Source: a virus. From it: a stretch of 33,534 nt of DNA. Position numbers and translations under genes: made by a program. Below the pieces are notes generated by a model. The model searched no databases, had not been told where the DNA came from, and worked only from the letters and a program-made list of their open reading frames with translations. The stretch is from the IMG/VR virus record IMGVR_UViG_3300017751_000094, positions 1 through 33,534 of that record. One strand, written 5' to 3'. Shown here piece after piece: positions 13,201 through 30,600 of the stretch; position 1 is the first letter of the stretch; each line of letters begins with the position of its first letter.

Positions 13201-16200
13201 AAGATAACAGATCATTCATTCAAGACGAATTACTTGATTGGATTGATAACAACGACGAGTTCTTTGCTTACGACAGCGTTAAGTGTAAGCGAGATACGAC
13301 CGAGTATATTCTTCCTGCAGCTAAATATGACATGCTTCTCGACACCAACTATAATGCTGTAAGAGCAGGTGGTGCATACTTTATGAAGTCTGCTGAGAAG
13401 GTTGTAGGTCAACAACGAAATGAAACTGTTGCAGCTTACCGTAGACTTAAAGATCAAACCAATGCGTTAATTGATGGTGATTCATATATTGCTACTTCTC
13501 GAGTAGATGCAGCTATGGACGAGATTGTTGACATTCTCGATTATCGTGGAACAACCTATACGCCTACTAACGCCACATACGATCCTACTACTGGAATAAT
13601 GGTAGTAACTATTGGTGCTCACTCATTAACACCTGGACGCAAGGTCCTGGTCTCTGAGGGTGGTATTACATTCAGTTGTGGAACTGATGGGAATGTGATT
13701 AATATCTCACACCCACGTCCTACTGATCCAGTGTTTAAGAGTCCAATTGAGATTCTTGATGTCACTGCAACTACCATTACGACTAATGTAGGAAGATCAT
13801 TCTACACTGGCATACATACATTTGTAAGCGCTCTTCCAAATTCAGTTATTGAAATGGGCTCAGAGATTACATGGTCTGATGATACGAATATCCCAGTTGA
13901 TAATCGTAATGCTCGTAAGCAAATACAAGCTAACCGCGAGTTTATTCAAGATCAGACTCTAGGCTACATTGACGATAACTACTTCCGTTACGATTCTGAA
14001 AAATGTTCTCGTGATGTACTTGAATATATTCTTCCTGCGGTTGAGCGAGATCTCATTACTGGTTCGAACTTTAACTCAATTCAAACTGGTGTTGCTTATC
14101 GTCAAGGAACTCAAGGTGCAGAAACTGTTGTAAGAGACCAGCTCGTTGAAACAGTCGGAGCAATGACCCATCTGAAAGGTCTTGTTAGTGCTGCGGCAAC
14201 TGATGCTCCATCTCGTCACAGAACAGATGCGGCATTTGATCAAATCATCGACATTTTAAATAACAATGGTAAGAGCTACACACCAGGTGCAGGTACAACT
14301 TACGATCCTACTACTGGTGTATTAGATCTTGCTATCGGTGCTCACGATTTACAAGAAGGTGCTACCGTTTTACTGGATGATGAGAGTATAGTATTTACAT
14401 GTGCTCTTGATGGTAATACAACAAATCATGCTTATCCACGTAAAGGTGATCCTGCATATCGAACTCCGGTAACAATCAACACCGTAACAGCGACATCGAT
14501 TACAGTCAATGTTGGTGGTTACTTAAATGGTACTGCTCATACATGGGTAAGTTCAACTACTGATTGTGTTAAGTCTGGAACTTATGAAGGTAGCTATACT
14601 CCTTCAACTGCGACTTACGATCCTGCTACTGGTATATTTGAAGCAACTATCGGACAACATAATTTATCAGCCGGCGATTACATTGAAATCAAACCAAATT
14701 CGGTTGTGTTTACTTGTGATCTCGATGGAGATGTTACAGAACATGCTGCTCCTCAAGCACACCATCCTTACTATCGCAAGCCGGTTAAACTCACCGCAGT
14801 AACCGCAACTACTATTACTTGTAATATTGGTGCAGGAACAGGTGGTACTCATACATTTGCTTATGCTCATGTAGGCGCAATTGATGGAGATCCTGTTGTA
14901 TGGACTGATCCATCACGTTACTTGAGCTACTACACACCTACAACTGCAACTTACGATCCTGTTACTGGTGAGAGTGTTGTAACAATCCCAGGACATGATA
15001 TTGCACTTGGTGATTACATTGAGTTTGCTCCTTACAGCTTTACATTTACATGTTCTCAAGATAGTGATGCTACTGAGCACTCATACCCACGCAAAGGTGA
15101 TGGAAACTATAATGAACCGATGCTAGTAACTGCTGTTGCTGGGGATGATATTACAGTTAATTCCGGTGTGGGTGCTGGTGGTACTCATACATTTGTAAGT
15201 GCTACTAATCAGGCTGTTGCTAAGACAACTCACCTTTCACAAGGTCAACTTGCTCGGGAACAACTACAAGCAAATAGGTCATTCTTACAAAATGAAGTAA
15301 TGGCTTACCTCGATACACAATACTTTGTATTCGATGGTGATAAGTGTTCAAGAGATACTGGAATCATTCTCAACTCAGTACGACATGACATTCTTACTGG
15401 TAGCAACTTCAGTTCGGTATTTGCTGGATTAGCATATCGTGCAGGTACAACTAGCGGTGACATGGTTATTTCTGATCAGCTCACTCAGACTGTTGCTGCT
15501 ATTGAATTTGTAAGAGATGAAACTGCAAACTACTTATCTGGTACAGCACTGGCTAGATCAACCTCTGCATTCAATGAAATTGTAGATGTTCTACAAAATG
15601 GTCAAGCAAATGCAGATCCTATCGTATTCGGAACAGCCGGTTTAAGTACTGCTCATGTCGAAGCTCAACAAGCTTTACAAGCAAATAAGGCATTCCTCCA
15701 GGCAGAAATTACTTCTTGGTTAGCTGCTAACTATCCGGCTCTCACTTACGATGTTGCTAAGTGTGAACGTGATCTTGGTTACATCATCGATTCAGCATCC
15801 TTTGATGTTCAGTTCGGTGGTAATACAGCATCTATTAATAATGCTCGACTCTACTACAGCAATGCAGTTGCGGTCTTACCTGAAGATCAACGTGTACCTA
15901 CTGCTCGAGCATTTGAGCATATTGCTAAGGTTGCTGATCAAATTGTAAGAGGAGAGGATGTAATACCAACATTCGGTTCTCAGTATAGTCCTACTAATGC
16001 AACTTATGATCCTGCTACTGGTGTGTATGAAGCAATCATCGGAACTCACGGCTTAAACATTGGAGACTTTGTTTGGTTGGCTGATAACGGTGTAACTTTT
16101 GAGTGTGACATGGGAAGCGGTCCTGCTAACCATACTTCACCTCAATCACATCACCCATATTGGAGAGCTCCGGTCGAGATTACAGCCGTGACCGCTACTT

Positions 16201-19200
16201 CAATTACAATGAATGTAGGAACAGGTGGAACAGGTCAAACACCTCATACTTTCGTAAGTGCGGTACCAAATGCTATCAGTGAGATTACTGGAAACACCAC
16301 TGCACAAGATAATACTTACCCATCAGGTACAGCAACAGATGCTGAAACATTTACAGTCGGTAAAGATGTAGTAGATGCAATCAGCTTAGTTGCTACGATG
16401 ATTCAAGAAGCGAACTTTGACTCCCTACCTGAGATTCAGCAGGTTACTTATCGTCCAGGTGATGCTACTTTGGTTTCAGCTTACAACGACATTGATGGTG
16501 TAACTGAATCATTACAAGGTGCGGTAATCAAGTACTTGAGAGAAGAGCATAAAGGCCTTCCATACAATAAAGACAAGTGCTATCGAGATGTTGGTCTTAT
16601 CACCGATGCGATCTCGAAAGATATCGAATATGGTGGAAACCAGAATACTATTGAAGCTGCTAAGTACTACTTTGCAGTTGATCTTGAGGAAGGTTCTACT
16701 TACGAGCAATTACGAGTTGTTAACGTTCTTCCAATTCCAGTTACTGGCCAGTTCGCCGTACTCGACGATTTAGCTTCGGTCTCTGGATTAAGGGAAGCAA
16801 CTAACGTTCTACCTCTTGAGCAACGTGAACCTACTAAACTTGCATTCGAGCATTTAGCTAGTGTTGCTGAGAAGGTCGTTACTGAAACAGCTCATACGAG
16901 CTTGTTCCCACGATACACTCCAACCAATGCTACTTACGATCCAGCAACTGGAATCTATACTGCTGAGATTGGTGCTCACTCATTAACAGTGGGTAAAGAA
17001 GTTTGGTTGAAGCCAAATGGAGTAACATTTAGTTGTGACATGGGTAGCGGTGTTGCTAACCATACTTCACCTCAGGCTCACCACCCTTACTATAATGCAC
17101 CAGTTAAGATTGAATCGGTAACTTCAACTAGCATTACAATGAATGTAGGAACTGGTGGTTCAGGTCAACAGGCACATACATTTGTATCAGCTGATGCAGA
17201 CTCAATCAGTGAAGGTCCATATCAGATCACTGACGGAACAGCAACAACGGCTGCTACAGGAACTGCGGTAAGTAACTTATATACAATCATCTCAGATGTT
17301 GTTGAAGATAACGATCTCGACAATCTAGATACAGTTGAAGTTAAGCCTCTTGCTGATCCTAACCGAACAGTTGCTCGTAAGCAAATTCAACGCAATAAGG
17401 ACTTTATTGTTGAAGAAGTTGTTGCATACCTCAATGATGAATATTACACATTCCCAGGAGATAAGTGTAAGCGAGATGTAGGTCTTATCATTGACGCTGT
17501 TAAACGTGATGTACTAACAGGTTCAAACTTCAATGCGGTCTTCAACGGTCTTGCATATCGAATTGGTACACCTGGCGCTGATGCAGTAATCAATGAGCAA
17601 TTAACAGAAACTATATCTGCTATTGAGTATGCTCGGGATATCGCGGTAGCCGCGGTTACTGATGTAACTGCTAAGACACGAACAACTGACGCATTCAATG
17701 AAGTTATTGATATCATGGGTAATGGATCAGGTAATGCTGATAACATCAACTATGGTTCTGAATGGGTTAGTATTGTTCATCTTAATGCTCGACTCCAATT
17801 GCAAAATAACAAAGAGTTCTTACAGGCAGAAATCACAGCTTGGTTGGCTCAGAACAGAGGATCACTTACTTACGATGTTGCTAAGTGTGAGCGTGACTTG
17901 GGATACATTCTCGATTCCGTATCATTCGACATTCAACATGGTGGTAATACTGCTTCACGCAACAATGCTATTCTCTACTTTGAGAATGCTGTAAGCGTAC
18001 TTCCTGAAGATCAACGTGAACCTACTGCAGCAGCATTTAATCATATTGCTAATGTAGCCGAACTGGTCGTTCAAGAAACTCCGGTTACTCCTACACCAGG
18101 AAATGGTGTTTCTCAGAACTTTAATTCTGGTAACGCTAGCCCAGCAGTTGCAGCTAAAGTAAAAGATCTTATTAACATTATTACTGAAGCAGTAGGCGAG
18201 AACGGTCTTGAGGGAATTCCAGTTGCTATCGAGAACACCCAATCTACGTATGATGTAGTATATCAGGCAGCTTATGCGGCGATCGAGGGTACTAAGGAAG
18301 CCATTCAGGACGGTGTACTTTCTCACCTATCTGTTTACTTTAATACACTCAGCTACAATGAAGTTAAGTGTAGACGTGATCTATCATTCATCATTGATGC
18401 GGTAACACACGACATTCAATATGGTGGTAATGCTTCTACGGTTAATGCTTCTGGATTGTATTTTGAGAATGCAGTAAGTGTTCTTCCACTCAATCAACGA
18501 CAAGCAACTCGAGATGCCTTCCTACACTTAGGTAAGGTAATGAATCATGTTACTCGTGAGATTGTGGTAGAGCCTACAGTAGGTAACCCATATACTCAAA
18601 GCTTTAAGGAAGTAGCTGCTAACCCACTTACAGGACATGCTGTACAAGCACTTGTTGAGATTGTAGCAAATACTGTTGACGATGCTATTCCTTCTACGGC
18701 TAACATACCAGCTGCGGTTGCACCTAATCTTGAATGGGTCGCTGGAAACTATAAAGCTTCTAACGATCTTATCGAAGATTCTGCTAAGACAATGGCTGAT
18801 TCAGTAATTAGTTACATTAGCACAACTTACAACGGATTGAGTTTCCCCGAGTTTAAGTGTCGCAGAGACATCGGTTACCTTATCGATGCAGTATCACATG
18901 ACGTACAATATGGTGGTAACTTTGCTACTCGACAGGCTGCTGGGATTTACTTCGAAAACGGTATCAGTGTACTACCTGTAGATACTCGAATCCAAACGGC
19001 TGATGTATACGCTTACCTAGCAACACTACTTGATGGTGTTGTTCAAGAAACTGATGTATCAAGTGCAACAACTTATACTCCAACCGATGCAACTTATGAT
19101 CCTGCTACTGGTGTGTTTACGGCAACTATCGGTTCAAACAGTTTCAATGTTGGTGATAAAGTTTGGTTCAAGCTAAATGGAATTACATTTAGTTGTGACA

Positions 19201-20903
19201 TGGGAAGTGGAGTTGCTAATCATACTTCACCACAGTCTCATCACCCATACTCAAATAGAGGATGTCCAATTACTGCGGTAGACGGAAACGTTATTACCAT
19301 GAATGTAGGAACGGGCGGAACAGGTCAAGTACCTCATACCTTTGTATCCGCGGTAGCAGATTCAATTAGCACTGGTCCTTATCAAGATACTGATGGTGAT
19401 CCTGCAACAGCGGTTGAAGGTGCTAGAGCTGCTGAGTTGATTGGTTATATTGAAGATGCAATACGTCAAGATACTATTGAGAGCCTACCACCACATGAAG
19501 AGCCAGATACTTCTTGGGTAGCAAGTGACTTGACTGATGCTGCGGTTAAGATTGATAGTAACCGATATGAACTTGCAAATGACTTGGTTGAATTCCTACG
19601 TCGTGAGTTTGATGTACTTGACTACAATCGAGCGAAATGTCGACGTGACACTGGTTACTTACTCGATGCATTCAGCTATGACTTGAACTACGGTGGTAAT
19701 ACAGCATCTCGTTGGAATGCAGACTTCTACTTCTGGAATAGCACATACCGCATCCCAGAAGATCAGCGCATACCTACTGCTAAGTCTTATCGTCAACTAG
19801 GTCAAATTTGTAAAGATATTGTTTTAGGACACTATCCTGGCCAGGTTGTTAAGAGTGGAACTGGTACGGAGGTTGAATCCGCTAAGGTTGAAGGTCTCGC
19901 AAATATCTTCTATGAAACTCAGATAAATAACGATACGAAGTATTTACCTGTTAAGATAGAGCCAGATTATGATTGGGTTAGTTCTGATGTTGCAGATGTC
20001 CAGCAAATCTTAGAGTTTAACAAGATCGATCTTGCTGCTGATACAGTCAGGTTCGTTAATGCTACTTACCGTTATGTTGATTTGAATCTAACAAGACGTG
20101 ATGGCAAGAACTTACTGAAAGCAATCAAGTCTGACTTTGAGAGTTTGAATGCGGGTGGACCATCACTTACTGGCTACTATCAAAATAACGGTAGTAGTGT
20201 TCGTACCAGAGCTTATGTTGCGGCATTCTTTGACTACGACGGAACACACGTATTCCCAGTCTTTAACCCAGCACGGGCAGGACTGAAATATAAGGGATCA
20301 GTAGTTGATGTTGCTGCACTGGCAGGAATTACTGGTCAGAAGCCATACCATGCATATATTGTTGCAACGGACTTGGCTACTAGCTTCTATGAGGGTAATA
20401 TATACTACTGGAATCCAGATATTAATGATTGGACTCTGGATGGGGCAAACAATACTGATCTATTGGATGCGTTCGTTGGAGCTTGGGATCGAATGAAAGA
20501 TTATATCGTTGCAAATCTTTCACCTGATGCTGAGCATACAGTTATGATTAATCAGTTATTTAATGATTGTATTAAGGATAACGTGTTAAGACCAGAAACA
20601 CTAACGTTTGGATCGTTGGTTGAATCGATTGCTCACCAGTTTAACGGTGCATCGGCTGGTGTTAACAGAAACGCACTACCACTGAACTTTAGAAACTTAG
20701 GTCTTCCAATCTCGGCGTTGGCTTCTGTACTAAGTGAAGATGGTGGACGTATACGATGGTCAGGTGCGGATGAATTGAATAACCAATACTTCGCAAGAGG
20801 TTTAAGAATTAACGGTAGAACAGGTCGAATTGAAGGTCGACCATTTACTTCATCCGTAAGAAAACTCGCAAGACGTGCATCTAATAGTAGAGCATCAATC
20901 TAA
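10287..20903 (+). CDS. Giant modular tail-fibre-like structural protein (3538 residues)
   Basis: One unbroken 10.6-kb frame encodes this protein. In order it contains: a short N-terminal head (SKISELPPITGANTRSEDLF); a pentapeptide-like helix with a 20-residue period (about residues 52-401); a pectate-lyase-like start, VHVDPVKGDDSNPGT, near residue 452, leading into Gly/beta-rich sequence to about 850; and then eleven KCxRD helical modules (residues about 860-3150) interleaved with seven TYDP beta modules. The tail contains a degenerate twelfth LTRRDGKNLL copy and ends in a basic stretch (SVRKLARRASNSR). No S74 or transmembrane segment is seen. Related giant proteins are known to me from cyanophages and other marine myoviruses as virion structural proteins of undefined function. 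A host-recognition fibre or large baseplate appendage is inferred. An exact late-promoter box precedes it. Confidence 0.8.
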   Translation: MSKISELPPITGANTRSEDLFVIVNLVQGDDGTSNITRKELVQAIQYEIFDRITITGGTISGVVMSDSRLDNVIIDNSNMEDSEIIRTLFDDGQLTNSTGDNLEIVRSDFSDGTGANNTFTDSRLNDSTANNVAITSSTFTDGEIFDSTGNNVVLTSSELNDSTANNVVITNSEFNEGTGNNVVLTNSTIDDSTITDSTANNVAITSSTFTDGAVNDSTANNVTMTNSSFTDGTIADSTANNVGITSSTFADGAVSNSTANNITITASTFDNGALTNSTGDNVDLVNSDFSDGTGANNVFTGSELNDSTANNLAITSSDFSDGTGNNNVFTNTTIDQGVIQDSVIVDSSFTGTMANVVAENMTITSSTATGFGQTKSTFDDGDVTKSTFKDGVIDQSKLVDFDMEIENDFEPSIDENSWFALKNEKTGETEKITYGQFFREISKTTATDLKVHVDPVKGDDSNPGTMLEPIQTLERASELAIEKAGGDANRNAINNAIHISCGPGTYYTKGNIALPDDCAMTSTAGQYATVIEALPGYENNNAVLVGSGCYVQGFAYQNWKVDNFDFPEGGFAVAYRPGAKLLRSPYIRDSSQLSNFLREDVEPPLQPFNTKGNVLDLGREFILEVGYTGQFLMDDEITFSSGAKGYISWDDTRDLDPSGDGSLPALTPDLATNRKIFVRNLKNGRGYAVGDTVRSESGGVGVIESIGIDNFPNPLVGRGGGCMLADRRVLDPDSLYTYVLCFGFTPRSQNGIGYVARDGAGVNGIGSLSIFVRVAFYALNGGQMTLNNSGTQFGDISMRAKGTTEIFAPKDPDPNGDNLFGNTVFASVLTDNSDLIIEDMIGHLTANTSDGGLGYTGYDADKCERDSKIIIDNSAYDITLDTNYWGRLAGISYRSPISSKVVGEQLEATLGANQYLQSRIESLFDGDVIDRANTSFQELYNVVEFGEENMNPIIFTDTGNAKYTSAREVLQDNRSFIQDELLDWIDNNDEFFAYDSVKCKRDTTEYILPAAKYDMLLDTNYNAVRAGGAYFMKSAEKVVGQQRNETVAAYRRLKDQTNALIDGDSYIATSRVDAAMDEIVDILDYRGTTYTPTNATYDPTTGIMVVTIGAHSLTPGRKVLVSEGGITFSCGTDGNVINISHPRPTDPVFKSPIEILDVTATTITTNVGRSFYTGIHTFVSALPNSVIEMGSEITWSDDTNIPVDNRNARKQIQANREFIQDQTLGYIDDNYFRYDSEKCSRDVLEYILPAVERDLITGSNFNSIQTGVAYRQGTQGAETVVRDQLVETVGAMTHLKGLVSAAATDAPSRHRTDAAFDQIIDILNNNGKSYTPGAGTTYDPTTGVLDLAIGAHDLQEGATVLLDDESIVFTCALDGNTTNHAYPRKGDPAYRTPVTINTVTATSITVNVGGYLNGTAHTWVSSTTDCVKSGTYEGSYTPSTATYDPATGIFEATIGQHNLSAGDYIEIKPNSVVFTCDLDGDVTEHAAPQAHHPYYRKPVKLTAVTATTITCNIGAGTGGTHTFAYAHVGAIDGDPVVWTDPSRYLSYYTPTTATYDPVTGESVVTIPGHDIALGDYIEFAPYSFTFTCSQDSDATEHSYPRKGDGNYNEPMLVTAVAGDDITVNSGVGAGGTHTFVSATNQAVAKTTHLSQGQLAREQLQANRSFLQNEVMAYLDTQYFVFDGDKCSRDTGIILNSVRHDILTGSNFSSVFAGLAYRAGTTSGDMVISDQLTQTVAAIEFVRDETANYLSGTALARSTSAFNEIVDVLQNGQANADPIVFGTAGLSTAHVEAQQALQANKAFLQAEITSWLAANYPALTYDVAKCERDLGYIIDSASFDVQFGGNTASINNARLYYSNAVAVLPEDQRVPTARAFEHIAKVADQIVRGEDVIPTFGSQYSPTNATYDPATGVYEAIIGTHGLNIGDFVWLADNGVTFECDMGSGPANHTSPQSHHPYWRAPVEITAVTATSITMNVGTGGTGQTPHTFVSAVPNAISEITGNTTAQDNTYPSGTATDAETFTVGKDVVDAISLVATMIQEANFDSLPEIQQVTYRPGDATLVSAYNDIDGVTESLQGAVIKYLREEHKGLPYNKDKCYRDVGLITDAISKDIEYGGNQNTIEAAKYYFAVDLEEGSTYEQLRVVNVLPIPVTGQFAVLDDLASVSGLREATNVLPLEQREPTKLAFEHLASVAEKVVTETAHTSLFPRYTPTNATYDPATGIYTAEIGAHSLTVGKEVWLKPNGVTFSCDMGSGVANHTSPQAHHPYYNAPVKIESVTSTSITMNVGTGGSGQQAHTFVSADADSISEGPYQITDGTATTAATGTAVSNLYTIISDVVEDNDLDNLDTVEVKPLADPNRTVARKQIQRNKDFIVEEVVAYLNDEYYTFPGDKCKRDVGLIIDAVKRDVLTGSNFNAVFNGLAYRIGTPGADAVINEQLTETISAIEYARDIAVAAVTDVTAKTRTTDAFNEVIDIMGNGSGNADNINYGSEWVSIVHLNARLQLQNNKEFLQAEITAWLAQNRGSLTYDVAKCERDLGYILDSVSFDIQHGGNTASRNNAILYFENAVSVLPEDQREPTAAAFNHIANVAELVVQETPVTPTPGNGVSQNFNSGNASPAVAAKVKDLINIITEAVGENGLEGIPVAIENTQSTYDVVYQAAYAAIEGTKEAIQDGVLSHLSVYFNTLSYNEVKCRRDLSFIIDAVTHDIQYGGNASTVNASGLYFENAVSVLPLNQRQATRDAFLHLGKVMNHVTREIVVEPTVGNPYTQSFKEVAANPLTGHAVQALVEIVANTVDDAIPSTANIPAAVAPNLEWVAGNYKASNDLIEDSAKTMADSVISYISTTYNGLSFPEFKCRRDIGYLIDAVSHDVQYGGNFATRQAAGIYFENGISVLPVDTRIQTADVYAYLATLLDGVVQETDVSSATTYTPTDATYDPATGVFTATIGSNSFNVGDKVWFKLNGITFSCDMGSGVANHTSPQSHHPYSNRGCPITAVDGNVITMNVGTGGTGQVPHTFVSAVADSISTGPYQDTDGDPATAVEGARAAELIGYIEDAIRQDTIESLPPHEEPDTSWVASDLTDAAVKIDSNRYELANDLVEFLRREFDVLDYNRAKCRRDTGYLLDAFSYDLNYGGNTASRWNADFYFWNSTYRIPEDQRIPTAKSYRQLGQICKDIVLGHYPGQVVKSGTGTEVESAKVEGLANIFYETQINNDTKYLPVKIEPDYDWVSSDVADVQQILEFNKIDLAADTVRFVNATYRYVDLNLTRRDGKNLLKAIKSDFESLNAGGPSLTGYYQNNGSSVRTRAYVAAFFDYDGTHVFPVFNPARAGLKYKGSVVDVAALAGITGQKPYHAYIVATDLATSFYEGNIYYWNPDINDWTLDGANNTDLLDAFVGAWDRMKDYIVANLSPDAEHTVMINQLFNDCIKDNVLRPETLTFGSLVESIAHQFNGASAGVNRNALPLNFRNLGLPISALASVLSEDGGRIRWSGADELNNQYFARGLRINGRTGRIEGRPFTSSVRKLARRASNSRASI
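10440..11490 (+). repeat. Pentapeptide-like repeat array, 20-residue period
   Basis: Within the giant protein, units such as STFTDGAVNDSTANNVTMTN recur about every 20 residues. Hydrophobic or small residues (F, V/I, A, I/M) fall exactly five residues apart, as in a four-sided pentapeptide beta-helix with one unit per coil. DNA units of about 60 bases share phrases such as GATTCAACTGCAAATAATGT. The array is cleanest at about 10905-11150 and more degenerate on either side. Confidence 0.7.
12865..19740 (+). repeat. Eleven KCxRD helical modules of the giant protein
   Basis: The phrase KC-x-RD followed by a helix (about I-I-D-A-x-x-x-D-I) and then GGN or GSN recurs, with its Lys-Cys codons near 12873, 13281, 14001, 15342, 15759, 16575, 17463, 17883, 18366, 18855 and 19635. 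Two subtypes are visible. One has LTGSNF...LAYR, at 14001, 15342 and 17463. The other has GGNTAS...ENAVSVLPEDQR, at 15759, 17883, 18366, 18855 and 19635. Each module is preceded by a helix like QANREFIQDEVLAYL. I do not recognise a named domain. Confidence 0.75.
13551..19370 (+). repeat. Seven TYDP/HTFVSA beta modules of the giant protein
   Basis: Modules of about 100 residues start near 13551, 14271, 14593, 14928, 15980, 16910 and 19070. Each has TYDPxTG, an IGxHxLxxGdxV strand, a strand ending in F-x-C, a Pro/His loop, TAVTATSITMNVG and HTFVSA. The Cys is present in all seven. Four copies (14593, 15980, 16910, 19070) also carry a HHPY loop. Similar modules occur in cyanophage structural proteins; the function is unknown. 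Confidence 0.75.
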
Positions 20904-20921: not shown

Positions 20922-21344
20922 ATGGCAGTCACAATTACTACATCGCAGGCGCCAGACGCGAAACCGGTATACAGTAACTTAATACTTGAAACTACCGCCA
21001 AAGAAATTATCAATGTACCTAATTATCGGGTTCCTGAGTTGGTCTTTGGTGGTTCTACTACTGTTGAGCCGGGCGTTGGTGAAATTATTTCTCCATTGCT
21101 TTTATGCAATACTACTGCAACCACCGTTAACGTAGACGTAGAAGTTTATAGAGCTGATGAGAACGTATTCTTTAACTTTGTAAAGAACTTACCAGTACCT
21201 GGCTATGACACAGTTGCTCTACCATTGAACGGTCAGTTCTTAAAAACAGGTGATATACTACAAGCCTCTGCTTCTGTTAACTTTGCAATTCATAGCACTC
21301 TATCGTTCACCCTTGGACAGTCGGAAGAAGACGACGTTGTGTAA
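20922..21344 (+). CDS. Small beta-rich structural protein, function unknown
   Basis: The protein has 140 residues and no family I can name. The composition and alternating hydrophobic pattern suggest a beta-sandwich: VYSNLILETT, GEIISPLLLCNTTATTVNVD, VDVEVYRADENVFF, TVALPLNGQFLKTGDILQA and a closing IHSTLSFTLGQSEEDDVV with an acidic end. There is no signal peptide or membrane segment. It lies between the giant fibre-like protein and the collagen-like fibre, 18 bases after the former, with AGGAT at about 20909-20913 as a possible ribosome site. The position suggests a fibre connector, adaptor or virion decoration protein; this is inference from context only. Confidence 0.7.
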   Translation: MAVTITTSQAPDAKPVYSNLILETTAKEIINVPNYRVPELVFGGSTTVEPGVGEIISPLLLCNTTATTVNVDVEVYRADENVFFNFVKNLPVPGYDTVALPLNGQFLKTGDILQASASVNFAIHSTLSFTLGQSEEDDVV

Positions 21345-21382: not shown

Positions 21383-24300
21383 ATGGCCAATAGATTCGGC
21401 ACACTAACAGGAAAAGGAAGGCTGCTCGGACACGGCATACCACAAGCCTTTCCTATACAGTTAGACCCTTCGCCATTTGAAGGAGCAATCGTATATGCCG
21501 ATAACGGCGAATTGCGATACTCCGATGGTTCAGCTTGGTTACCACTGGGCACGGGTCCACAAGGTACTCAAGGTACTAACGGCATTCAAGGCAACCAAGG
21601 TCTTCAAGGTGGTTACGGTCCTGGGTTTACAATTATCGGCTCTGTTCCAGATGTCGATTCAGGTGGTGATCCACAAGCAACTCTTAATGCTGCATTCCCA
21701 GCCGCTAACATTGGTGAAGGTGTTATTGACGAAGCCGATGACGAGCTTTGGATTTACGATGGTGTAAATTGGGTAAACATCGGATCCTTCCGTGGAGTTC
21801 AAGGCTTCCAAGGCATACAGGGTAATCAAGGTTTACAAGGTGATACTGGTCACCGTGGTGTTCAAGGCTATCGTGGTGTACGTGGTTTCCAAGGAGCTCA
21901 GGGCGTACAAGGTATTCAGGGTGATCGAGGTTTCCAAGGCTTACAGGGTAACCAAGGTACACAAGGTGTTCAAGGACAAAAAGGTATTCAGGGTGACTTG
22001 GGTATCCAAGGTATTCAAGGACGTCGTGGTCCACAGGGTCTACAAGGTAATCAAGGTGTTCAAGGCGACACTGGTTTCCAAGGTGTACAAGGTACAACAG
22101 GCTTCTATGGTGGCGTAACATTTGAATATAACTTCATTGCTGCTACTGCTAACGTTTCACCAGGCAATACCAATGTAGCATTCAACAACACTATTATTAA
22201 CGCCGTGGATAAAGTATACATTCACGACGTTGCTGCAGTTCCTAATACAGACGTTGCACATCTTTTCGATAAAATTGCAGAAGTTGAAAATCCGATTAAA
22301 GCTTATGTTAAGCTTACTAATGTCGACGATATAGAAGAATTCACAATATTTGCTATTACAGATATAGTAGATAATTCAAGCTGGCACACATTTGATGTAG
22401 AATATGTAGGTGGTACAGGTACTCCTGCACTATATACAAACGAAAGACTCGCTGTTTCATTCTCTCAAGCAGGTGAAACGGGCGCGCAAGGAACTCAGGG
22501 AACGAAAGGTATCCAGGGTGATTACGGCATACAAGGTAATCAAGGCTTGCAAGGGCCACAAGGACCTCAGGGTACACAGGGAACTCAAGGAACACAAGGT
22601 ACGCAAGGTACGCAGGGACCACAGGGTACGCAAGGAACACAAGGTACATTAGGTGTACAGGGTAACCAAGGTGTACAAGGACGTACTGGTGAGTACGGCG
22701 GAGTAACATTTAGATTCATCTATGATGATACTGTTACAACTGCAAGCGATCCAGGCATTGGTGGCTTACGAGCTAATAATGCAACCTTAGGTAATGCTAC
22801 TGAACTTTACTTTGATGTTGAAGATGCTGATGATGTAACAATTAGTTCTATTATCGCAGAATTTTATGCTTCAACTAACCCTGGCAATAAGGGATACATT
22901 AAACTTTCTGATGCTGCTAACGTTTATAACTATGCAATGTTTGAAGTTACCGATGGTGCTCTTGTTGGTGATGCAGGATCTGGTTATCATACAATCAATG
23001 TAACCTCGTTTAGCGCCGGTCAAGGTTATGCTAACGGTACAGATTTCCGAGTATCATTTGTAAGAACAGGTGATCAAGGTTCTCAAGGTGTACAGGGTAC
23101 GTTAGGTATTCAAGGACCTCGCGGTAATCAGGGTGTACAAGGTGTTCAAGGTACAATAGGTGTACAGGGTAACCAAGGTCTTCAAGGATTGCAAGGTAAT
23201 CAAGGCTTGCAAGGCCCACAAGGACCGCAGGGTGTTCAAGGTACATTAGGTGTACAAGGTAACCAAGGTCTTCAAGGCGAATCAGTTCAAGGTACGCAAG
23301 GTACCCAAGGAACACAAGGTACATTAGGTGTACAGGGTAATCAAGGTGTACAAGGACAACGTGGACCACAGGGTCTACAGGGTATGCAAGGCTTGCAAGG
23401 TATTCAAGGATTGCAAGGTCTTTCTCAGTTCTCAGGCCTCTCTTATCGCTTTGATTACGATACCAATTCTACTCCGCAAACTGATCCTGGTCTAAGCACG
23501 GTCAAAACAAATAGTGCGATTGCTGCTTCTGTAACTCAGCTTACTATCGATGATCTACCTTTGAATGGTGGTACACTTGATGAACTGTATGATTACTTAG
23601 ACACATCATTTTACGGACAGCCACGTGGTTGGATTAAGCTTCAACCAGAAGGCAATAACAATTTCTACGATGTTTACGAGTGGACTGACTTTACTTGGGA
23701 TTCCGGTTCTAAAAACTGGGGCTGGTTTAACGTTACACACGTAACATCTACAGGTACATCTGCACAAACACAAGCTTCTATCGATGGTGTTCCATTGGTT
23801 GTAAGCTTTATTCTCGCAGGACCACAAGGTGCTCAAGGTACAGTCGGTACTCAGGGTACGACTGGACTACAGGGTCTTCAAGGCGAACAAGGCGAATATG
23901 GCGGCTTGACATTCGAGTGGCTATTTAATAGTAGTACTCTTGCACCTACTAATCCAGGCGATTATCAGTGGAAAGTCAATAATGTTAATCCAGAACTAGC
24001 TACATTACTGGTTCTTGACGATACTCCTAACGACTTATACGATACAAATATTCGAGATCTATTCGATTACTTAGATGCTAAGCCAACTGGAACTAAAGGT
24101 CAAATCTTTATTCAAGCTCCCGCGGGTGGGGATGCAGGTCCAGGCGGACACCACTTCTTAGTATACGATTATTCAGATTGGACTTGGGGTGATGTTGGTA
24201 AGAACTGGGGTTACTTCAATGTTAGTTTTGTAGAAGGTAGTGCATCTAACTGGAGTACAGTTGCTAGCTCCCACGGAAACAATACACTTATTACGTTTAT

Positions 24301-27214
24301 TCCTGCTGGTCCTCCTGGTATCCAAGGTATTCAGGGTGTTCAAGGTGACTTTGGTCTCCAAGGTATTCAAGGACCAATTGGTTCTGGATCACAAGGTATT
24401 CAGGGTGTTCAAGGTGGGCCTGGTCCTGCTGGTTCGTTTGGTGGTATCACGTTTGATTACACTTACGATACAAACACCGCAGATCAAGATCCGGGCACTG
24501 GTAAGTTAAGGTTTAACAATGCAAACTTTACTCTTGCTACACAAATGTACATTGATGATCGCGATGACAACTTCATCGATATCAGCCAGTTCCTACAAAC
24601 AATTGATGATTCTACTAGCCCGATCAAAGGTCACTACAAGGTTACTAAAGCAGATAATCCTGCTCAGTTCATCATCTATACGATTACAGCATTAACCGAT
24701 GTTGGTGGATCAACTTACTTTAATATTGATAGTGGTTATGTAGATGGTTCAGTAACAAGTTTTGCAAATGGTGAAGATGTTATTATTACCTTTGCAAGAA
24801 CAGGTGATGTAGGCCCAACAGGTGGACAAGGACCTCAAGGTGTTCAAGGTACAATAGGTGCTCAAGGACCCGGTGGTGTACAAGGTACAACTGGTTCAGG
24901 ATCTACTGGATCCCAAGGTGTTCAAGGTACAATAGGTGCTCAAGGAGCTACTGGATCACAAGGTCTTCAAGGTACTACCGGCGGTGCTGGTCAAGTAGGT
25001 ACTCAGGGCCCATCAGGTCTTCAAGGCTTTATTGGTAGTAAAGGTGATGATGGCATCCAAGGTGTACAAGGACCTCAAGGCCCACAAGGTGTTCAGGGTG
25101 AAGCTGGCGAGAGTGGCGGTGGTACTCAAGGTGTTCAGGGTACTCAAGGTGTACAAGGAACTCAAGGACAAACTGGTCTACAAGGTGGTACTGGTGGCGA
25201 AGGTCAACCAGGCGGATCTGGTCCACAGGGTGTTCAAGGTGTTCAAGGTCAGATCGGTATTCAAGGTGATACTGGTGTAGCCGATGGCGGTGCTCAAGGT
25301 ATCCAAGGTGTTCAGGGTAACCAAGGTTTAGCCGGTGGGCCAGGTAATGCTGGTGAAGATGGTACTCAAGGTACTACTGGTGCTCAGGGTGTTCAAGGTA
25401 TCCAAGGTCAAACTGGTGGTGGCACAACCATTCAGGGTGTACAGGGTAACCAAGGTACTACAGGATCTGGCATCCAAGGTATTGCTGGCGGACAAGGTGT
25501 ACAGGGTGTTCAAGGTGAGCAAGGACAGGCTGGTGCTGCTAACGCTGGTACACAGGGTATCCAAGGTGTTCAAGGTATCCAAGGTGAGGATGCAACAACC
25601 ACAGGATCACAGGGCATACAAGGTATTCAAGGTGACTTAGGATTAATTGGTAATCCTGGCACACAGGGTGCTCGAGGTATTCAGGGTTCTACTGGTACCG
25701 CAACCTTTACGGCTCAAGGTACACGAGGATCTCAGGGTGTACAAGGTGGTCGTGGCGCTCAAGGTATGCAAGGTACATCCGGTGAGCAATCAGGCTTACA
25801 AGGTATTCAGGGTGTTCAAGGACAAACTGGTGGAGCCGGTGGTACTCAAGGTCCGGTAGGCCCACAAGGTCTTCAAGGTTCTGGATCTCAGGGTGTTCAA
25901 GGATTACAGGGACATCAGGGTATTCAAGGTGGTGAAGGTGGATTCGAATCTGGTACCCAAGGTATGCAAGGACCTCAGGGTGTACAGGGTTCTGGTAACG
26001 AAGGTATCCAAGGTGTTCAGGGTCCTCGCGGTAACCAAGGTGTTCAAGGTAGTGCAAGTAATAACGAAGGTGTTCAAGGTCCGCAGGGTCCACAAGGTCC
26101 TACAGGTGTAGAATCAGGTGGTCCACAGGGTATTCAAGGTGTTCAGGGTGTTCCTGGCTCAGGACTTCAGGGTACTCGTGGTATCCAAGGTATTCAGGGT
26201 AATAATGGTACTATAGCAAATGGAACACAGGGTACTCGCGGTTACCAAGGTGTTCAAGGTAATGAAGGTGAGATTGGACCAGAAGGACCAATCGGACCAC
26301 AGGGTGTAGCTGGCGGCGGTGGCGGCGGTGGTAACCAGGGTGTTCAAGGACCAATTGGACCTCAAGGTACTGCCGGTCAAGCTGGTGGACCGGGTGCGCA
26401 GGGTACTCTTGGTGCTCAAGGTCCTGCAGGTGACAATGCTACTGCTGTGGAAGTTAGCTCAATTCATACTCAATCAGCGGCTTTACAGTCAACTAACTTG
26501 TTTATCCCAATGGTTTCTGGTAGTGCTGGAGCTCAGCCTTTCTATGCTACTAAGTCTCCAAACCCAGGAAGCCAAGAAAACTTCTTCTATACTAACGATG
26601 TAGATACTTTAACACTTGAAAACATTACAGTTGAAGGCGGTATCACACTAGGTGGTGTAACAGAAACCTCTTGGCCATCAGGCAGCGGTGGTGGGTTTGA
26701 CGGAACAGCTACTAATACAGTAACTACTGGTAAGATTGTCATGAACGACAATGCTGAAATTAGTTTCGGTACAAGTAGTGGTGAAGCTGACATGTACAGT
26801 GATGGTACTGACTTGATGTTAGACTTGACACACCAGAAGCTGTTCAAGATACGAAATGAGTACACATCTACAACGACCGGATTTACGTTCGACGCGTTTA
26901 ACGGTGACTTAACAGCAGCAGGTGATATTAATTCAACTTCAGACAAGCGTCTTAAAGAAAATGTTGAAACCATCGATAATGCACTCGATAAAGTACTTGC
27001 TATGAGAGGGGTAGGCTTTAATAGAATTGGTAAAGATACTCGATCAATCGGTGTTATTGCTCAAGAGATTGAAAAGATACTTCCAGAAGTAGTACATGTA
27101 GATGATTCGGATGAGAAGTTCAAGAGCGTATCTTACGCTAACATCGTCGCGGTATTGATCGAAGCTATTAAAGAACAACAAGAACAAATTGAAGATCTAA
27201 AAAGTAAAATCTAG
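21383..27214 (+). CDS. Collagen-like tail fibre with five globular inserts and S74 chaperone domain
   Basis: This protein has 1943 residues. The N-terminal head (about 1-55; GAIVYADNGELRYSDGSAW) may attach the fibre. Gly-X-Gln collagen-like stretches follow at about residues 59-80, 138-240, 366-436, 562-679, 812-837, 976-1017 and 1143-1686. Five related globular modules of about 110-140 residues separate them. They start with a YGGVTF / FGGITF-type phrase near residues 240, 436, 679, 837 and 1017, and contain a DPG turn, an IDD strand and an end like VSFxxTGDxG. The C-terminus is a peptidase S74 domain: SDKRLKENVE has Ser at residue 1853 and Lys at 1858, followed by GVIAQEIEKILPEVV and a terminal coiled coil. 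A trimeric collagen-type shaft, matured by self-cleavage, is expected. GGAG at 21370-21373 supports the start. Confidence 0.88.
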   Translation: MANRFGTLTGKGRLLGHGIPQAFPIQLDPSPFEGAIVYADNGELRYSDGSAWLPLGTGPQGTQGTNGIQGNQGLQGGYGPGFTIIGSVPDVDSGGDPQATLNAAFPAANIGEGVIDEADDELWIYDGVNWVNIGSFRGVQGFQGIQGNQGLQGDTGHRGVQGYRGVRGFQGAQGVQGIQGDRGFQGLQGNQGTQGVQGQKGIQGDLGIQGIQGRRGPQGLQGNQGVQGDTGFQGVQGTTGFYGGVTFEYNFIAATANVSPGNTNVAFNNTIINAVDKVYIHDVAAVPNTDVAHLFDKIAEVENPIKAYVKLTNVDDIEEFTIFAITDIVDNSSWHTFDVEYVGGTGTPALYTNERLAVSFSQAGETGAQGTQGTKGIQGDYGIQGNQGLQGPQGPQGTQGTQGTQGTQGTQGPQGTQGTQGTLGVQGNQGVQGRTGEYGGVTFRFIYDDTVTTASDPGIGGLRANNATLGNATELYFDVEDADDVTISSIIAEFYASTNPGNKGYIKLSDAANVYNYAMFEVTDGALVGDAGSGYHTINVTSFSAGQGYANGTDFRVSFVRTGDQGSQGVQGTLGIQGPRGNQGVQGVQGTIGVQGNQGLQGLQGNQGLQGPQGPQGVQGTLGVQGNQGLQGESVQGTQGTQGTQGTLGVQGNQGVQGQRGPQGLQGMQGLQGIQGLQGLSQFSGLSYRFDYDTNSTPQTDPGLSTVKTNSAIAASVTQLTIDDLPLNGGTLDELYDYLDTSFYGQPRGWIKLQPEGNNNFYDVYEWTDFTWDSGSKNWGWFNVTHVTSTGTSAQTQASIDGVPLVVSFILAGPQGAQGTVGTQGTTGLQGLQGEQGEYGGLTFEWLFNSSTLAPTNPGDYQWKVNNVNPELATLLVLDDTPNDLYDTNIRDLFDYLDAKPTGTKGQIFIQAPAGGDAGPGGHHFLVYDYSDWTWGDVGKNWGYFNVSFVEGSASNWSTVASSHGNNTLITFIPAGPPGIQGIQGVQGDFGLQGIQGPIGSGSQGIQGVQGGPGPAGSFGGITFDYTYDTNTADQDPGTGKLRFNNANFTLATQMYIDDRDDNFIDISQFLQTIDDSTSPIKGHYKVTKADNPAQFIIYTITALTDVGGSTYFNIDSGYVDGSVTSFANGEDVIITFARTGDVGPTGGQGPQGVQGTIGAQGPGGVQGTTGSGSTGSQGVQGTIGAQGATGSQGLQGTTGGAGQVGTQGPSGLQGFIGSKGDDGIQGVQGPQGPQGVQGEAGESGGGTQGVQGTQGVQGTQGQTGLQGGTGGEGQPGGSGPQGVQGVQGQIGIQGDTGVADGGAQGIQGVQGNQGLAGGPGNAGEDGTQGTTGAQGVQGIQGQTGGGTTIQGVQGNQGTTGSGIQGIAGGQGVQGVQGEQGQAGAANAGTQGIQGVQGIQGEDATTTGSQGIQGIQGDLGLIGNPGTQGARGIQGSTGTATFTAQGTRGSQGVQGGRGAQGMQGTSGEQSGLQGIQGVQGQTGGAGGTQGPVGPQGLQGSGSQGVQGLQGHQGIQGGEGGFESGTQGMQGPQGVQGSGNEGIQGVQGPRGNQGVQGSASNNEGVQGPQGPQGPTGVESGGPQGIQGVQGVPGSGLQGTRGIQGIQGNNGTIANGTQGTRGYQGVQGNEGEIGPEGPIGPQGVAGGGGGGGNQGVQGPIGPQGTAGQAGGPGAQGTLGAQGPAGDNATAVEVSSIHTQSAALQSTNLFIPMVSGSAGAQPFYATKSPNPGSQENFFYTNDVDTLTLENITVEGGITLGGVTETSWPSGSGGGFDGTATNTVTTGKIVMNDNAEISFGTSSGEADMYSDGTDLMLDLTHQKLFKIRNEYTSTTTGFTFDAFNGDLTAAGDINSTSDKRLKENVETIDNALDKVLAMRGVGFNRIGKDTRSIGVIAQEIEKILPEVVHVDDSDEKFKSVSYANIVAVLIEAIKEQQEQIEDLKSKI
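21558..26440 (+). repeat. Gly-X-Gln collagen-coding repeats
   Basis: The coding DNA consists of many nine-base units of the form GGT-NNN-CAA/CAG, with GGTGTTCAA, GGTATTCAA and GGTACACAA frequent. It is interrupted by the five globular modules and is longest at 24812-26440. Gln dominates the Y position and Pro is sparse, as expected for a bacterial or phage collagen without hydroxyproline. Such repeats favour slippage and recombination, so unit number may vary among relatives. Several open frames on both strands here are by-products of the repeat. Confidence 0.85.
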
Positions 27215-27322: not shown

Positions 27323-27661
27323 ATGGCATCCAGAGCTAACATTTACATAGACAAAGGAATGGACTTCAGAACAGCCATCGAGTTGTTCAATGAAGCTGGT
27401 GATGAATACCAAGACGCCACCATTGACGTTTATAACTTCTATAGCAGTATCCGAAAGGTATACTCGTCGACTGCTGTCGCGGACTTCGCGATAGAAAAAG
27501 CCAATAACGACATCACTCTAGTTTTGACCGACGCCCAAACTGACGCCTTGAAACCAGGCAAATATCAATATGATGTAATAATGCAAAAGCAAACAGGAGA
27601 ATTGTCCAAGATAGTTGAAGGCTTAGCGATTGTAGTCGATACTATTACGGAGGTTTCGTGA
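27323..27661 (+). CDS. Small structural protein preceding the repeat fibre
   Basis: The protein has 112 residues. It starts ASRANIYIDKGMDFRTAIEL and contains ADFAIEKANNDITLVLTDAQ, then the phrase TDALKPGKYQYDVIMQ and a closing EGLAIVVDTITEV. This arrangement (an opening IYIDKG strand, a ...LTxxQTxxLxPGxYxYDV segment and a final V-rich strand) resembles small beta-sandwich proteins encoded next to tail fibres in T4-like marine phages and some baseplate N-terminal modules; I cannot assign a named family. Its TGA stop overlaps the GTG start of the next gene in GTGA, implying coupled translation and probably matched amounts of the two products. A fibre-attachment or adaptor role is inferred. Confidence 0.75.
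   Translation: MASRANIYIDKGMDFRTAIELFNEAGDEYQDATIDVYNFYSSIRKVYSSTAVADFAIEKANNDITLVLTDAQTDALKPGKYQYDVIMQKQTGELSKIVEGLAIVVDTITEVS
27648..27653 (+). promoter_or_regulatory. Strong ribosome site deciding a GTG start
   Basis: CGGAGG at 27648-27653 lies four bases before GTG at 27658. The GTG overlaps the upstream TGA stop, and no ATG in frame lies nearby, so this site supports initiation at GTG. Confidence 0.7.
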
Positions 27662-30600
27662 GCATAAAGGTCAAGGTCGGTGGCGGCCGCAGTATAAAGG
27701 CCATACCGAAGGAAGATACAAGAACTCCTATAGTTGCACCCGGCGAACGTAAACCACAAATCGTTCCAGACAGTGTTGTTCTCGGTATTGATACTATCGG
27801 TGAATACGTCATTGCGGTTTCCAATACCGATGGGATTATTCTTACTCAAACAGAATTTAGACAGGGTGCTAATGTAGTCATTGGTCACGCTGATACTTCG
27901 AACGCTGTCAGTACATCAAATCCAGATCTCAGTTATCCCAAAAACATTGCGCTAGACCAGTTCGGTCATGTTACGCAGTTTGTTAACCAGAGTTTCAATC
28001 CTCTTAATTTTTCTGCTAATTCAACTACGATATTTACTAATGACTTTACGATTGGTAATACTTCGTTAACGCTCGGTGAAAGTACAACTACATTAGTAGG
28101 TCTTCAAGGTTTAGATGTAATCGGTGATATTGCCGGTGACACATTAGTGTTAAGAGATAAAACCGAAGGTCGTATCCTATTCGCTGGAGCTAATGGCACT
28201 ATCATTGATAGTTCAGGATTAGTCTTCGATGGTACATCGCTTATCGCATCTGGCGGGGTCTTCCTTGATGGATTACAAGTTGATGGACAAACAGACACAG
28301 ACAGTTTAAATGTTCGAGATCTTACAGATGGTCGTATTGTATATGCAGGTGCAAACGGCGAACTCATTGACAGTAATAATTTAACATTCGATGGTACATC
28401 ATTAACAGCAGCCGGTGGAGTATTCTTATCAGGCCTGGAAGTAAATGGCCAAACAAATGTTGATAGTTTAAATGTTAATGATCTCACACAAGGTCGTATT
28501 GTATATGCCGGTGCTAACGGTGAGTTAATCGACTCAGCTAATCTAACATTTAACGATACAAGTATAATTGCAACTGGTGGTGTATTCTTAGATGATCTTG
28601 ATGTAAGTTCAGGTCAAGCCACATTCGGTAGTGTTAACATTGTCGATCTTGACGAAGGTCGTATCATATACGCCGGAACAAATGGCGAGCTCGTTAATTC
28701 TGCTAATCTCTCCTTTGATGGTACAAGTATTACTGCCACCGGCGGTGTATTCTTAGACATACTCGAAGTTCCCGGCACTGCTGAGTTCGGTAGTGTACAA
28801 GTTAATGATCTCACTGAAACTCGAGTTGTATTCGTCGGTCCTGATGGAGAACTCGTTGATAGTAATAACCTTACGTTTGATGGTACTGATCTTACTGCTA
28901 CCGGCGGTGTATTCCTTGATGGGTTAGAAGTACAAGGTCAGTCAACATTCTCAAGTGTTAATGTAGAAGATCTTACTTCAAATCGAGTTGTATTAGCTGG
29001 TGCATCTGGTGAGTTAACCGACGATTCTCGATTACGGTTTAGTGCAAATACTCTTACTATTGAGGGTAATGCAGACATATACGGAAACCTTACACTCGGT
29101 GGTAATCTTCGTATTGGTGATGCAGATGTAGATACAGTTAACGTTGTAGCTGACTTTACTAGTGATTTGATTCCTGATGTTACGAATACATTTGATCTAG
29201 GTACTTTAGGAAAGAACTGGGGCCGAGTATTCACACCTGTAATTAAGAGTGATTCAGGTGTTGTTAGTATTGATACAACCGGCGCAATCAAAATACCAGT
29301 TGGTGGTACAATTGATCGTCCTACTCCTATCACAGGGATGCTTCGTTATAACTCTACGGATGACCGATTCGAAGGTTATGATGGTGCAGGCTGGTCTGAA
29401 CTAGCTGGTAGCGTAAAAGACGTTGATAAAGATACGTTTATACGTGCTGAGACCGCAGCAGGCGACGATAACGATCAGCTTGACTTTTTCACCGGTGGAA
29501 CACAAAGATTACAAATTAATCAAGGTGGCAATTTCATCTATGGTGCTAATGCTGTAGTATTTGATTTTGCATCAGGTGCTGTTGACATTGCCGGCACAGT
29601 AGACATTGGTGATGATACAGTTATCCAAGGTGATCTCTATGTTTATGATAACTTTACTGCTAACAGTGCCGCTGTTCAAGATTTAGCTACTAGCGGTATA
29701 GTATATTCTGGCCCCGGTGGCGAACTGAATGCTACTGCTAACCTTTCTTGGGACGGAACAAACCTTACGGTTGTTGGTGTTATCTCGGTTGATGGTGACT
29801 TTAGTACATCAGGCGGATTATCAGGTGATAGCTTATCAGTAGGTAACTTGGTTGCTAACACCATTATATTTGTATCTGAAACTGGTGCACTATCTTCGAA
29901 CTCAAGTCTTGCTTTCGATGGTGAAACACTTTCAATCAATGCTCACTCAACTTTTGGTGGGCCATTATTTGTAACAGATCTCACGAGCGATCGAGTCGTA
30001 TTAGCTGGTGCAAACGGTGCAATTACTGATAGTGCTGGACTTACATACGACGGATCATCACTTGATGTTACTGGTGATGCAAATGTAAGTGGTGCTCTTG
30101 ACGTCATTACAGATTTAACTGTCGGTGCATCTGCTACTGCAGCAACCGTAACAGCTGAGAACCTTACTCAAGGTCGAGTCGTTATTGTCGGTACCGATGG
30201 GCTACTCGAAGATAGTGATGGACTTACTTTTGATGGTAGTGATTTTGATATTACTGCTAATGTTGCTATCTCAGGATCTCTTACAATTGGAGATGGTGCT
30301 AGCTTTGGTGGTGATCAAGTTACTGTACCAAGTATTAATGTCGAAGATCTTACAACAGGTCGAGTAGTATTTGTAGGTGCAAATGGTGAGCTCGAAGATA
30401 GTTCAGACTTTACTTGGGACGGAAGCGATTTCTACATCAATGGTAATGGTGAATTTACTGGTGATGTAACAATTGCTGGTAACCTTACTCTTGGTGATCA
30501 GATACAAGATACAATTAATGTTGTAGCTGACTTTACTTCAGATTTAGTTCCGAAGGATACGAATACATATAGTATAGGACAAGGTCAAGTACTCGATGCA

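Follow-up and report, generated by a model that had tools for sequence, protein, structure and literature searches.

A collagen-rod fibre gene of a putative T4-like marine phage with five homologous globular modules, and apparent exchange of such modules among its relatives

The window analysed here, a whole stretch of 33,534 nt of viral DNA, contains on its plus strand a 1943-aa ORF (21383-27214) without internal stop, in which collagen alternates with globular modules, hereafter beads. The preliminary description of this DNA had read the product as a rod alternating with five copies of a module and ending in a self-cleaving chaperone. Both parts of that reading are borne out, as a single ORF carries Gly-X-Gln collagen and five homologous modules, and its C-terminal part (aa 1853-1905) matches Peptidase_S74 (PF13884, E 2e-14; 54.1 bits, cut-off 22), for which self-cleavage is predicted. 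The parts of the gene and its two neighbours are as follows, with bead classes taken from the bead tree discussed below.

20922..21344, plus strand: 140-aa upstream neighbour gene, directly upstream in 96 of 107 loci with the fibre N-terminus
21383..27214, plus strand: fibre gene, 1943 aa, with Gly-X-Gln collagen, five beads and a C-terminal S74 chaperone
21383..21793, plus strand: N-terminal region, aa 1-137, presumably anchoring the fibre to the virion and conserved across 49 loci of IMG/VR
21794..22087, plus strand: collagen rod preceding bead 1, 98 aa
22088..22477, plus strand: bead 1, tree class B, aa 236-365
22478..22675, plus strand: rod between beads 1 and 2, 66 aa, likewise 66 aa in 14 distinct four-bead relatives
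22676..23074, plus strand: bead 2, class G, aa 432-564
23075..23395, plus strand: rod between beads 2 and 3, 107 aa
23396..23824, plus strand: bead 3, class A, aa 672-814, AlphaFold2 model pLDDT 88.9
23825..23878, plus strand: rod between beads 3 and 4, 18 aa
23879..24313, plus strand: bead 4, class A, aa 833-977
24314..24418, plus strand: rod between beads 4 and 5, 35 aa, likewise 35 aa in 14 distinct four-bead relatives
24419..24808, plus strand: bead 5, group E, aa 1013-1142, AlphaFold2 model pLDDT 92.8
24809..26437, plus strand: distal collagen, 543 aa, with many short breaks, bead-free
26438..27211, plus strand: tip region and Peptidase_S74 intramolecular chaperone, Ser1853 codon at 26939, cleavage predicted
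27323..27661, plus strand: 112-aa downstream gene, possible fibre assembly chaperone (phrog_3304, phrog_1084)

At E ≤ 0.1, the only Pfam families found in the whole fibre were this peptidase and collagen (PF01391, E 2e-86, 12 stretches). Ser1853 of the S74 domain sits in SDKRLKEN, and we take it to be the serine of the S74 cleavage motif. The N-terminal region, which presumably anchors the fibre to the virion, contains a short first collagen run (aa 58-81) followed by an insert of ~56 aa (aa 82-137). The first 144 aa of the fibre retrieved 49 relatives from IMG/VR and no match at E ≤ 1e-5 among 50,697 phage records; three of the 49 (L028, L057 and L073) are bead-free, on contigs that end no more than ~200 bases from the N-terminal match. 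The insert (window 21626-21793) is of a ~50-aa type with 'ELWIYDG..WVN' that also interrupts collagen in L017, L091 and L152 (several copies), and it represents a third kind of collagen punctuation, besides the beads and the copper-like domain described below.

The window also encodes a gp6-like baseplate wedge (phrog_438, E 2e-51) and a VrlC-like protein whose first 797 aa share 31–34% identity with the top records, which among the best 15 of 1439 matches belong to Sinorhizobium phages phiM7, phiN3, phiM19 and phiM12 and to Caulobacter phage Cr30. With these genes the window covers a portion of the structural genes of a T4-like myovirus, and an alphaproteobacterial host is our guess. The 140-aa upstream gene has a weak match to phrog_1276 (E 0.033). 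The 112-aa downstream gene, found within 9 kb downstream in 72 of the 107 loci, many of these loci being cut, matches phrog_3304, annotated as 'L-shaped tail fiber protein assembly' (E 7e-14), and phrog_1084, of unknown function (E 2e-15). The conserved N-terminus, the C-terminal S74 domain, the baseplate neighbours and the probable downstream chaperone argue for a tail or baseplate fibre. A cyanophage identity was not favoured, with psbA present in one of 12 records tested (L148), whose bead protein is laid out differently. In that bead-carrying record of 159,556 bases, psbA lies in two pieces ~720 bases apart, and an intron is possible.

Other repetitive or virion-like proteins were observed in the window. 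The protein at 674-1699, which adjoins the baseplate wedge gene, has a subtilase-family domain (PF00082, E 3.5e-7) and a tail fibre match (phrog_15006, E 2e-23). A shorter protein at 9081-10241 also ends in Peptidase_S74 (E 4e-14), so that two S74-chaperoned proteins lie in one structural region. Pentapeptide repeats (PF13599, E 3e-10) occur in the ORF of 3538 aa at 10287-20903, which resembles a virion protein, while the 1578-aa protein at 27658-32394, in which many units of ~50 aa around 'GRIVYAGANGELIDS..LTFDGTSL' are visible by eye, is possibly another repetitive fibre.

The shaft had been characterized beforehand as rich in Gln at the Y position and nearly free of proline. Gln indeed occupies Y in 180 of the 302 G-X-Y triplets of the window fibre (60%; runs of four or more), and the rods are Pro-poor, although the claim of near absence goes too far, with Pro at X in 35/302 triplets (11.6%) and at Y in 7/302 (2.3%). 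Across 26 fibres including that of the window, which were picked by hand together with contrasts (13 of 14 listed), Gln made up 63% of Y in 6063 triplets, and Val, Ile, Leu and Thr filled 45–61% of X positions. Viral collagens have 13.0% Gln at Y and 22.1% Pro at X in Table 4 of PMC3368898, the part of that paper used for this comparison. Gln-dominated collagen is far from this published average and raises the question of helix stability without hydroxyproline. The bead itself is not tied to Gln collagen, given that Thr is the commonest Y residue in the rods of L025, L119, L141 and L152, which are bead proteins beyond the fibre family. A bead at L160:8867-12574 stands beside 'collagen' whose Y residue is Ser in 146 of 152 triplets and which is unlikely to form an ordinary triple helix. 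We also observed that the distal collagen of L022 (aa 1281-1823) has no G-X-Y register breaks by the same test that gave many in the distal collagen of the window. Rod DNA consists of 9- and 18-bp tandem repeats. Collagen rises 0.286 nm per residue, at which the rods of the window alone would be ~250 nm long.

The beads share just 24–31% identity with module 1, and a profile of any four recovered the fifth (E 6e-22 to 2e-31, for one target sequence), which indicates homology and not chance. The YGGVTF start previously ascribed to all modules is exact in two of the five, the others reading FSGLSY, YGGLTF and FGGITF; the proposed TGDxG exit likewise survives as TGD in two, with AGET, AGPQ and AGPP in the remainder. 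Given that the five-bead alignment (A1) was too variable for searching, single beads and a later alignment (A3) were used instead. AlphaFold2 models of bead 5 (mean pLDDT 92.8, from a 90-sequence alignment) and bead 3 (pLDDT 88.9, from a 23-sequence alignment of class A only) have an identical order of strands and helix, with one extra helix in bead 3, and 46 of 48 BFVD matches at E ≤ 1e-3 are common to both. The idea of a common fold was therefore upheld, and the models show it as a single predicted fold, mostly beta-stranded.

The 48 BFVD matches of bead 5 comprise 26 proteins named collagen triple helix repeat, 13 unnamed and nine otherwise named; five of the 26 collagen-named matches are from giant viruses, the best being LCMAC102 (TM 0.91, 34% identity). 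None of the five window beads reached a Pfam cut-off, the sole match being the unrelated Enas (E 0.035, 14.6 bits against 22), and the best 25 of 33 Pfam families listed for 90 beads, which did not include C1q/TNF, each matched at most a single bead. Of these 90, 18 matched PHROG 35140, a family of unknown function. Bead profiles had no convincing match to PDB sequences, and Foldseek with the bead 5 model returned none from the PDB at E ≤ 1e-3, while two further PDB structure comparisons gave best Z values of 5.8 and 5.4. A TNF ligand appeared among structure matches at rank 43 with probability 0.08, and HerA, Upf1 and V-ATPase barrels among the middling ones were given no weight. The absence of PDB matches does not make the fold new; as a domain, the bead appears to be undescribed so far. 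Its most variable loops are 78-83 and 111-119, with high mean entropy and longest insertions of 13 and 15 residues; because they follow alternate strands, they are expected to lie at the same pole. The most invariant positions are G2, G5, G9, F125, G129, K70 and P25, of which the first five lie at collagen junctions.

Beads occur almost exclusively next to collagen: a G-X-Y run lies no more than 25 aa away from 298 of the 300 distinct beads, the two exceptions without nearby collagen being one bead of HTVC010P and that of MW202476. When loci were retrieved through the bead sequence, collagen was nearby in 40/40, 145/145 and 17/17 cases (202/202 in total), compared with 103/948 random stretches of other long ORFs from the same loci. 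IMG/VR held at least 588 bead stretches, and 84,980 bacterial and archaeal genomes yielded six bead loci, in scans that used the same alignment and differed in one of two peptide patterns. Three of these six were in one Rhodobacteraceae bin and one in another; the three share the neighbour genes of the fibre and have coverages of 88, 5.7 and 67, which suggests that they may be stray phage contigs. With single beads as queries, IMG/VR scans returned no relatives for beads 3 and 4 and one for bead 2, a first scan of the genome collection with bead 5 found nothing, and in the phage records nothing matched bead 1 at E ≤ 0.01.

The flanking of 298/300 beads by collagen, the position of the invariant residues mainly at collagen junctions (G2, G5, G9, F125 and G129, plus P25 and K70) and the Pro-poor rods of the window are in line with the main rival to a contact role, in which a trimeric bead would be a structural clamp that nucleates folding, keeps register and stiffens Pro-poor collagen without binding anything outside. 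We consider this rather unlikely, given that fibres with more collagen do not carry more globules (Spearman 0.15, p 0.39, 33 hand-chosen fibres) and that the longest collagen stretch is distal and bead-free. Moreover, beads change class between fibres with the same rods and can be replaced by an unrelated copper-like domain, as described below, neither of which would be needed for clamps.

Variation among related phages, which the preliminary description had led us to expect, is present both in bead number, from two to six in complete fibres of the family, and as replacement of beads in blocks. A tree built from 129 beads over 132 columns, in which many forks are unresolved, gave the clades labelled A, B, G, D and F, while E is a collective label for the remaining beads, among which D and F are nested. 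The class order is B-G-A-A-E in the window and B-G-A-E in its nearest N-terminal relatives, L026 and L027; elsewhere D-G-A-E, B-A-A-E, G-A-B-E, D-A-E, A-E and B-B-G-A-F-E were found. Rods of 66/90-93/35 aa are common to 14 distinct fibres from 31 loci, four of which were classed by nearest bead alone (49–93% identity); slot 1 holds B in seven of these fibres, D in six and G in one, and slot 2 holds G in 12 and A in two, while slots 3 and 4 hold A and E in 14/14. Slot 1 needs a minimum of four changes on a conserved-part tree and five on an N-arm tree. Resolution is weak in both trees, and shuffled slot labels equalled the observed count in 20/200 draws; the case for exchange therefore leans on pairs of fibres.

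Fibres L006 and L007 are 94–100% identical save for bead 1 (72%) and its rod (77%), with 144 nucleotide differences in the 588 positions of bead 1 and rod and 84 in the 2355 elsewhere up to bead 4. The divergent block begins gradually on the left and ends abruptly on the right near aa 425, where the rod meets bead 2. Its dS is 0.74 in bead 1 and 1.65 in the rod, against 0 to 0.26 in the rest of the gene, which points to imported DNA. Similarly, L042 and L026 share 85% identity in bead 3 and 29% in bead 1. Bead variation in these sequences shows itself as block replacement between rods of unchanged length, and repetitive rod DNA is a plausible site for the joins. As a separate observation, beads 2-4 of L011:6552-10574 and beads 1, 3 and 4 of L013:7751-13486 have their closest relatives within their own protein in the bead tree, a sign of recent tandem duplication.

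Selection inside the beads is purifying, with bead dN/dS below 0.6 wherever dS exceeded zero in 22 usable pairs of relatives, several nearly identical; the pair L011/L015 was left out of this set because it compares different slots. A few segments had one or two nonsynonymous and zero synonymous changes, and one rod (L019/L020) had a dN/dS of 1.3 on five changes. The diversifying sites that had been anticipated in the modules were thus not supported. Site-wise diversification of the beads, for example by a diversity-generating retroelement, would account for loops that differ strongly between beads. However, the low dN/dS, the lack of a retroelement-type excess of nonsynonymous sites in the 22 pairs and the raised dS of the strongly differing bead 1 of L006/L007 largely refute it, and we find it scarcely credible.

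Beads are not the only modules held between rods. Relatives carry 60 distinct non-collagen, non-bead inserts of at least 40 aa, of which 28 by our own count are one domain of ~100 aa, absent from the window fibre. Examples are located as follows.

L047:8256-8555, L075:5494-5784, L083:4177-4476 and other relatives: copper-like domain between collagen rods

In this domain His39, Cys85, His88 and Met91 are invariant in 17/17 aligned sequences, and we take this to be the ligand set of type-1 blue copper proteins. Matches to known families are weak and mostly appear to point to the blue-copper type: halocyanin in 3/17 (best 0.0028), amicyanin in 2/17 (best 0.15) and an At5g54830-like family in 10/17 (best 4e-5), with pseudoazurin at E 1.3 in the PDB, behind an unrelated chain at 6e-4. 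A profile of the domain found 45 ORFs, partly from overlapping loci, of which 44 bear beads. Slot 1 holds the copper-like domain in L083 and a bead in L096, the other segments of the two fibres being 64–90% identical.

Counting beads and copper-like domains together as globules, we found that collagen up to the last globule measures 330 ± 27 aa in 52 distinct fibres with three to seven globules, a set that leaves out near-copies, fibres cut at the 5' end and those whose collagen beyond the last globule is shorter than 200 aa. If the seven-globule fibre L031 is included, the total grows by 14.8 ± 4.7 aa per globule (p 0.003), and if not, by 2.3 ± 4.5 aa (p 0.61), although the mean rod between globules is 66 aa. 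Among the 22 rod patterns of these 52 fibres, the sum has a standard deviation of 35 aa, or 23 aa without L031, compared with ~92 aa for independently drawn rods, and none of 20,000 draws was as low as observed; such draws ignore common descent, which contributes to a constant sum. The partition can differ while the sum stays steady, as in L019 (partition 42/63/42/15/41, collagen sum 316 aa up to the last globule) and L050 (69/139, sum 321 aa). Given that the rod sum is kept despite varying partition, modules seem mostly to have been inserted into or removed from an existing rod.

We regard a rod-and-bead architecture with module exchange as very probable. That the protein works as a tail or baseplate fibre of T4-like type, from which exchangeable modules project sideways at fixed places, is a proposal to which we give an even chance. 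The conserved N-terminus would attach a trimeric fibre of a T4-like marine phage to the virion, trimer and orientation being presumed, and the Gly-X-Gln collagen triple helix would make the rod. The S74 domain would chaperone trimerisation and then probably be cut off. The rod would act as a ruler with slots, each taking one globular module per chain and hence three per position, and modules would be exchanged, gained or lost as blocks, presumably by recombination probably aided by collagen repeat DNA on both sides, while rod length is kept. The turnover of modules along a rod that keeps its length suggests that the virion determines the reach of the fibre, whereas lateral contacts follow the host or environment.

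That the modules are such contact sites, for example through multivalent weak binding to surface glycans, we hold slightly less probable than its opposite, and receptor binding by the beads would be a plausible, predicted role. Against the simplest picture of an adhesin, the beads are N-terminal and presumably virion-proximal, with 515 aa of collagen beyond them in the window. The absence of positive selection at bead sites likewise counts against the favoured reading. The proximal position of the beads, together with a last bead that falls in one residual group across the fibre family and the kept collagen length to that bead, would also suit beads that attach to the phage's own parts, such as tail, sheath or other fibres, and hold the fibre folded until cell contact. 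We judge such self-binding improbable, since slots 1 and 2 turn over between relatives with otherwise similar fibres. On the favoured reading of lateral display, a rod that keeps its length while its modules change uncouples reach from contact, two roles that tail fibres usually combine, and if the slots are truly exchangeable, the order of bead classes would be a readable interaction barcode in uncultured marine viruses. The family would also give boundaries to a domain hidden inside 'collagen triple helix repeat' annotations.

Among known systems, the tail fibre of Pelagibacter phage HTVC010P has three bead-homologous places (best 37% identity, E 1e-15), two beads lying back to back and the third in the next, overlapping ORF (L023, 7476-9360); unlike the window fibre, it is almost without collagen (five triplets). 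Collagen repeat proteins of LCMAC102, Indivirus and Klosneuvirus, whose genomes we take to be metagenome-assembled, hold the bead fold in BFVD models, and these, unlike the window phage, are viruses of eukaryotes. EPclB-type collagen-like side tail fibres of E. coli O157 prophages are close in design as described in the part of PMC3368898 used here: Pf2 separates two collagen domains, beaded molecules are seen in the electron microscope, and Gln is common and Pro rare at Y, as in our fibre. However, EPclB has one internal domain and 14.5% Gln at Y, compared with five related domains and 60% in the window fibre, from which the EPclP domains PfN (PF08400), Pf2 (PF03406) and PfC (PF06820) are absent (Pfam, E ≤ 0.1). 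Collagen repeats are also found among putative receptor-binding proteins of pelagi- and cyanomyophages, in a T4-like setting with VrlC as in the window, and the sections of that account drawn on here are without bead, slot or exchange (PMC7029224).

In the portions of the open PMC literature covered, we found neither the bead family nor the exchange of slots within a collagen shaft nor a copper-like phage-fibre domain described, and no open PMC paper paired cupredoxin with phage tail fiber or plastocyanin-like domain with bacteriophage virion; the parts used of PMC11705849 treat iron motifs of tail fibres, and those of PMC11334073 the collagen repeats of giant viruses and the transfer of genes between these viruses. 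Shuffled tail-fibre domains and phage collagen interrupted by a single domain are already known from the parts of the literature used here. Tentatively, and with more doubt than for the contact role, we propose a widespread viral fibre class in which a collagen ruler of fixed length carries an undescribed bead of phages and giant viruses, and in which unrelated globules, including a probable copper-binding one, swap by recombination into a combinatorial surface code. Phage receptor-binding proteins shuffle domains (PMC10684548), in a paper whose main text contains no occurrence of collagen; unlike the mosaicism in the portion of that paper used here, the exchange in the window family takes place inside a shaft of conserved length.
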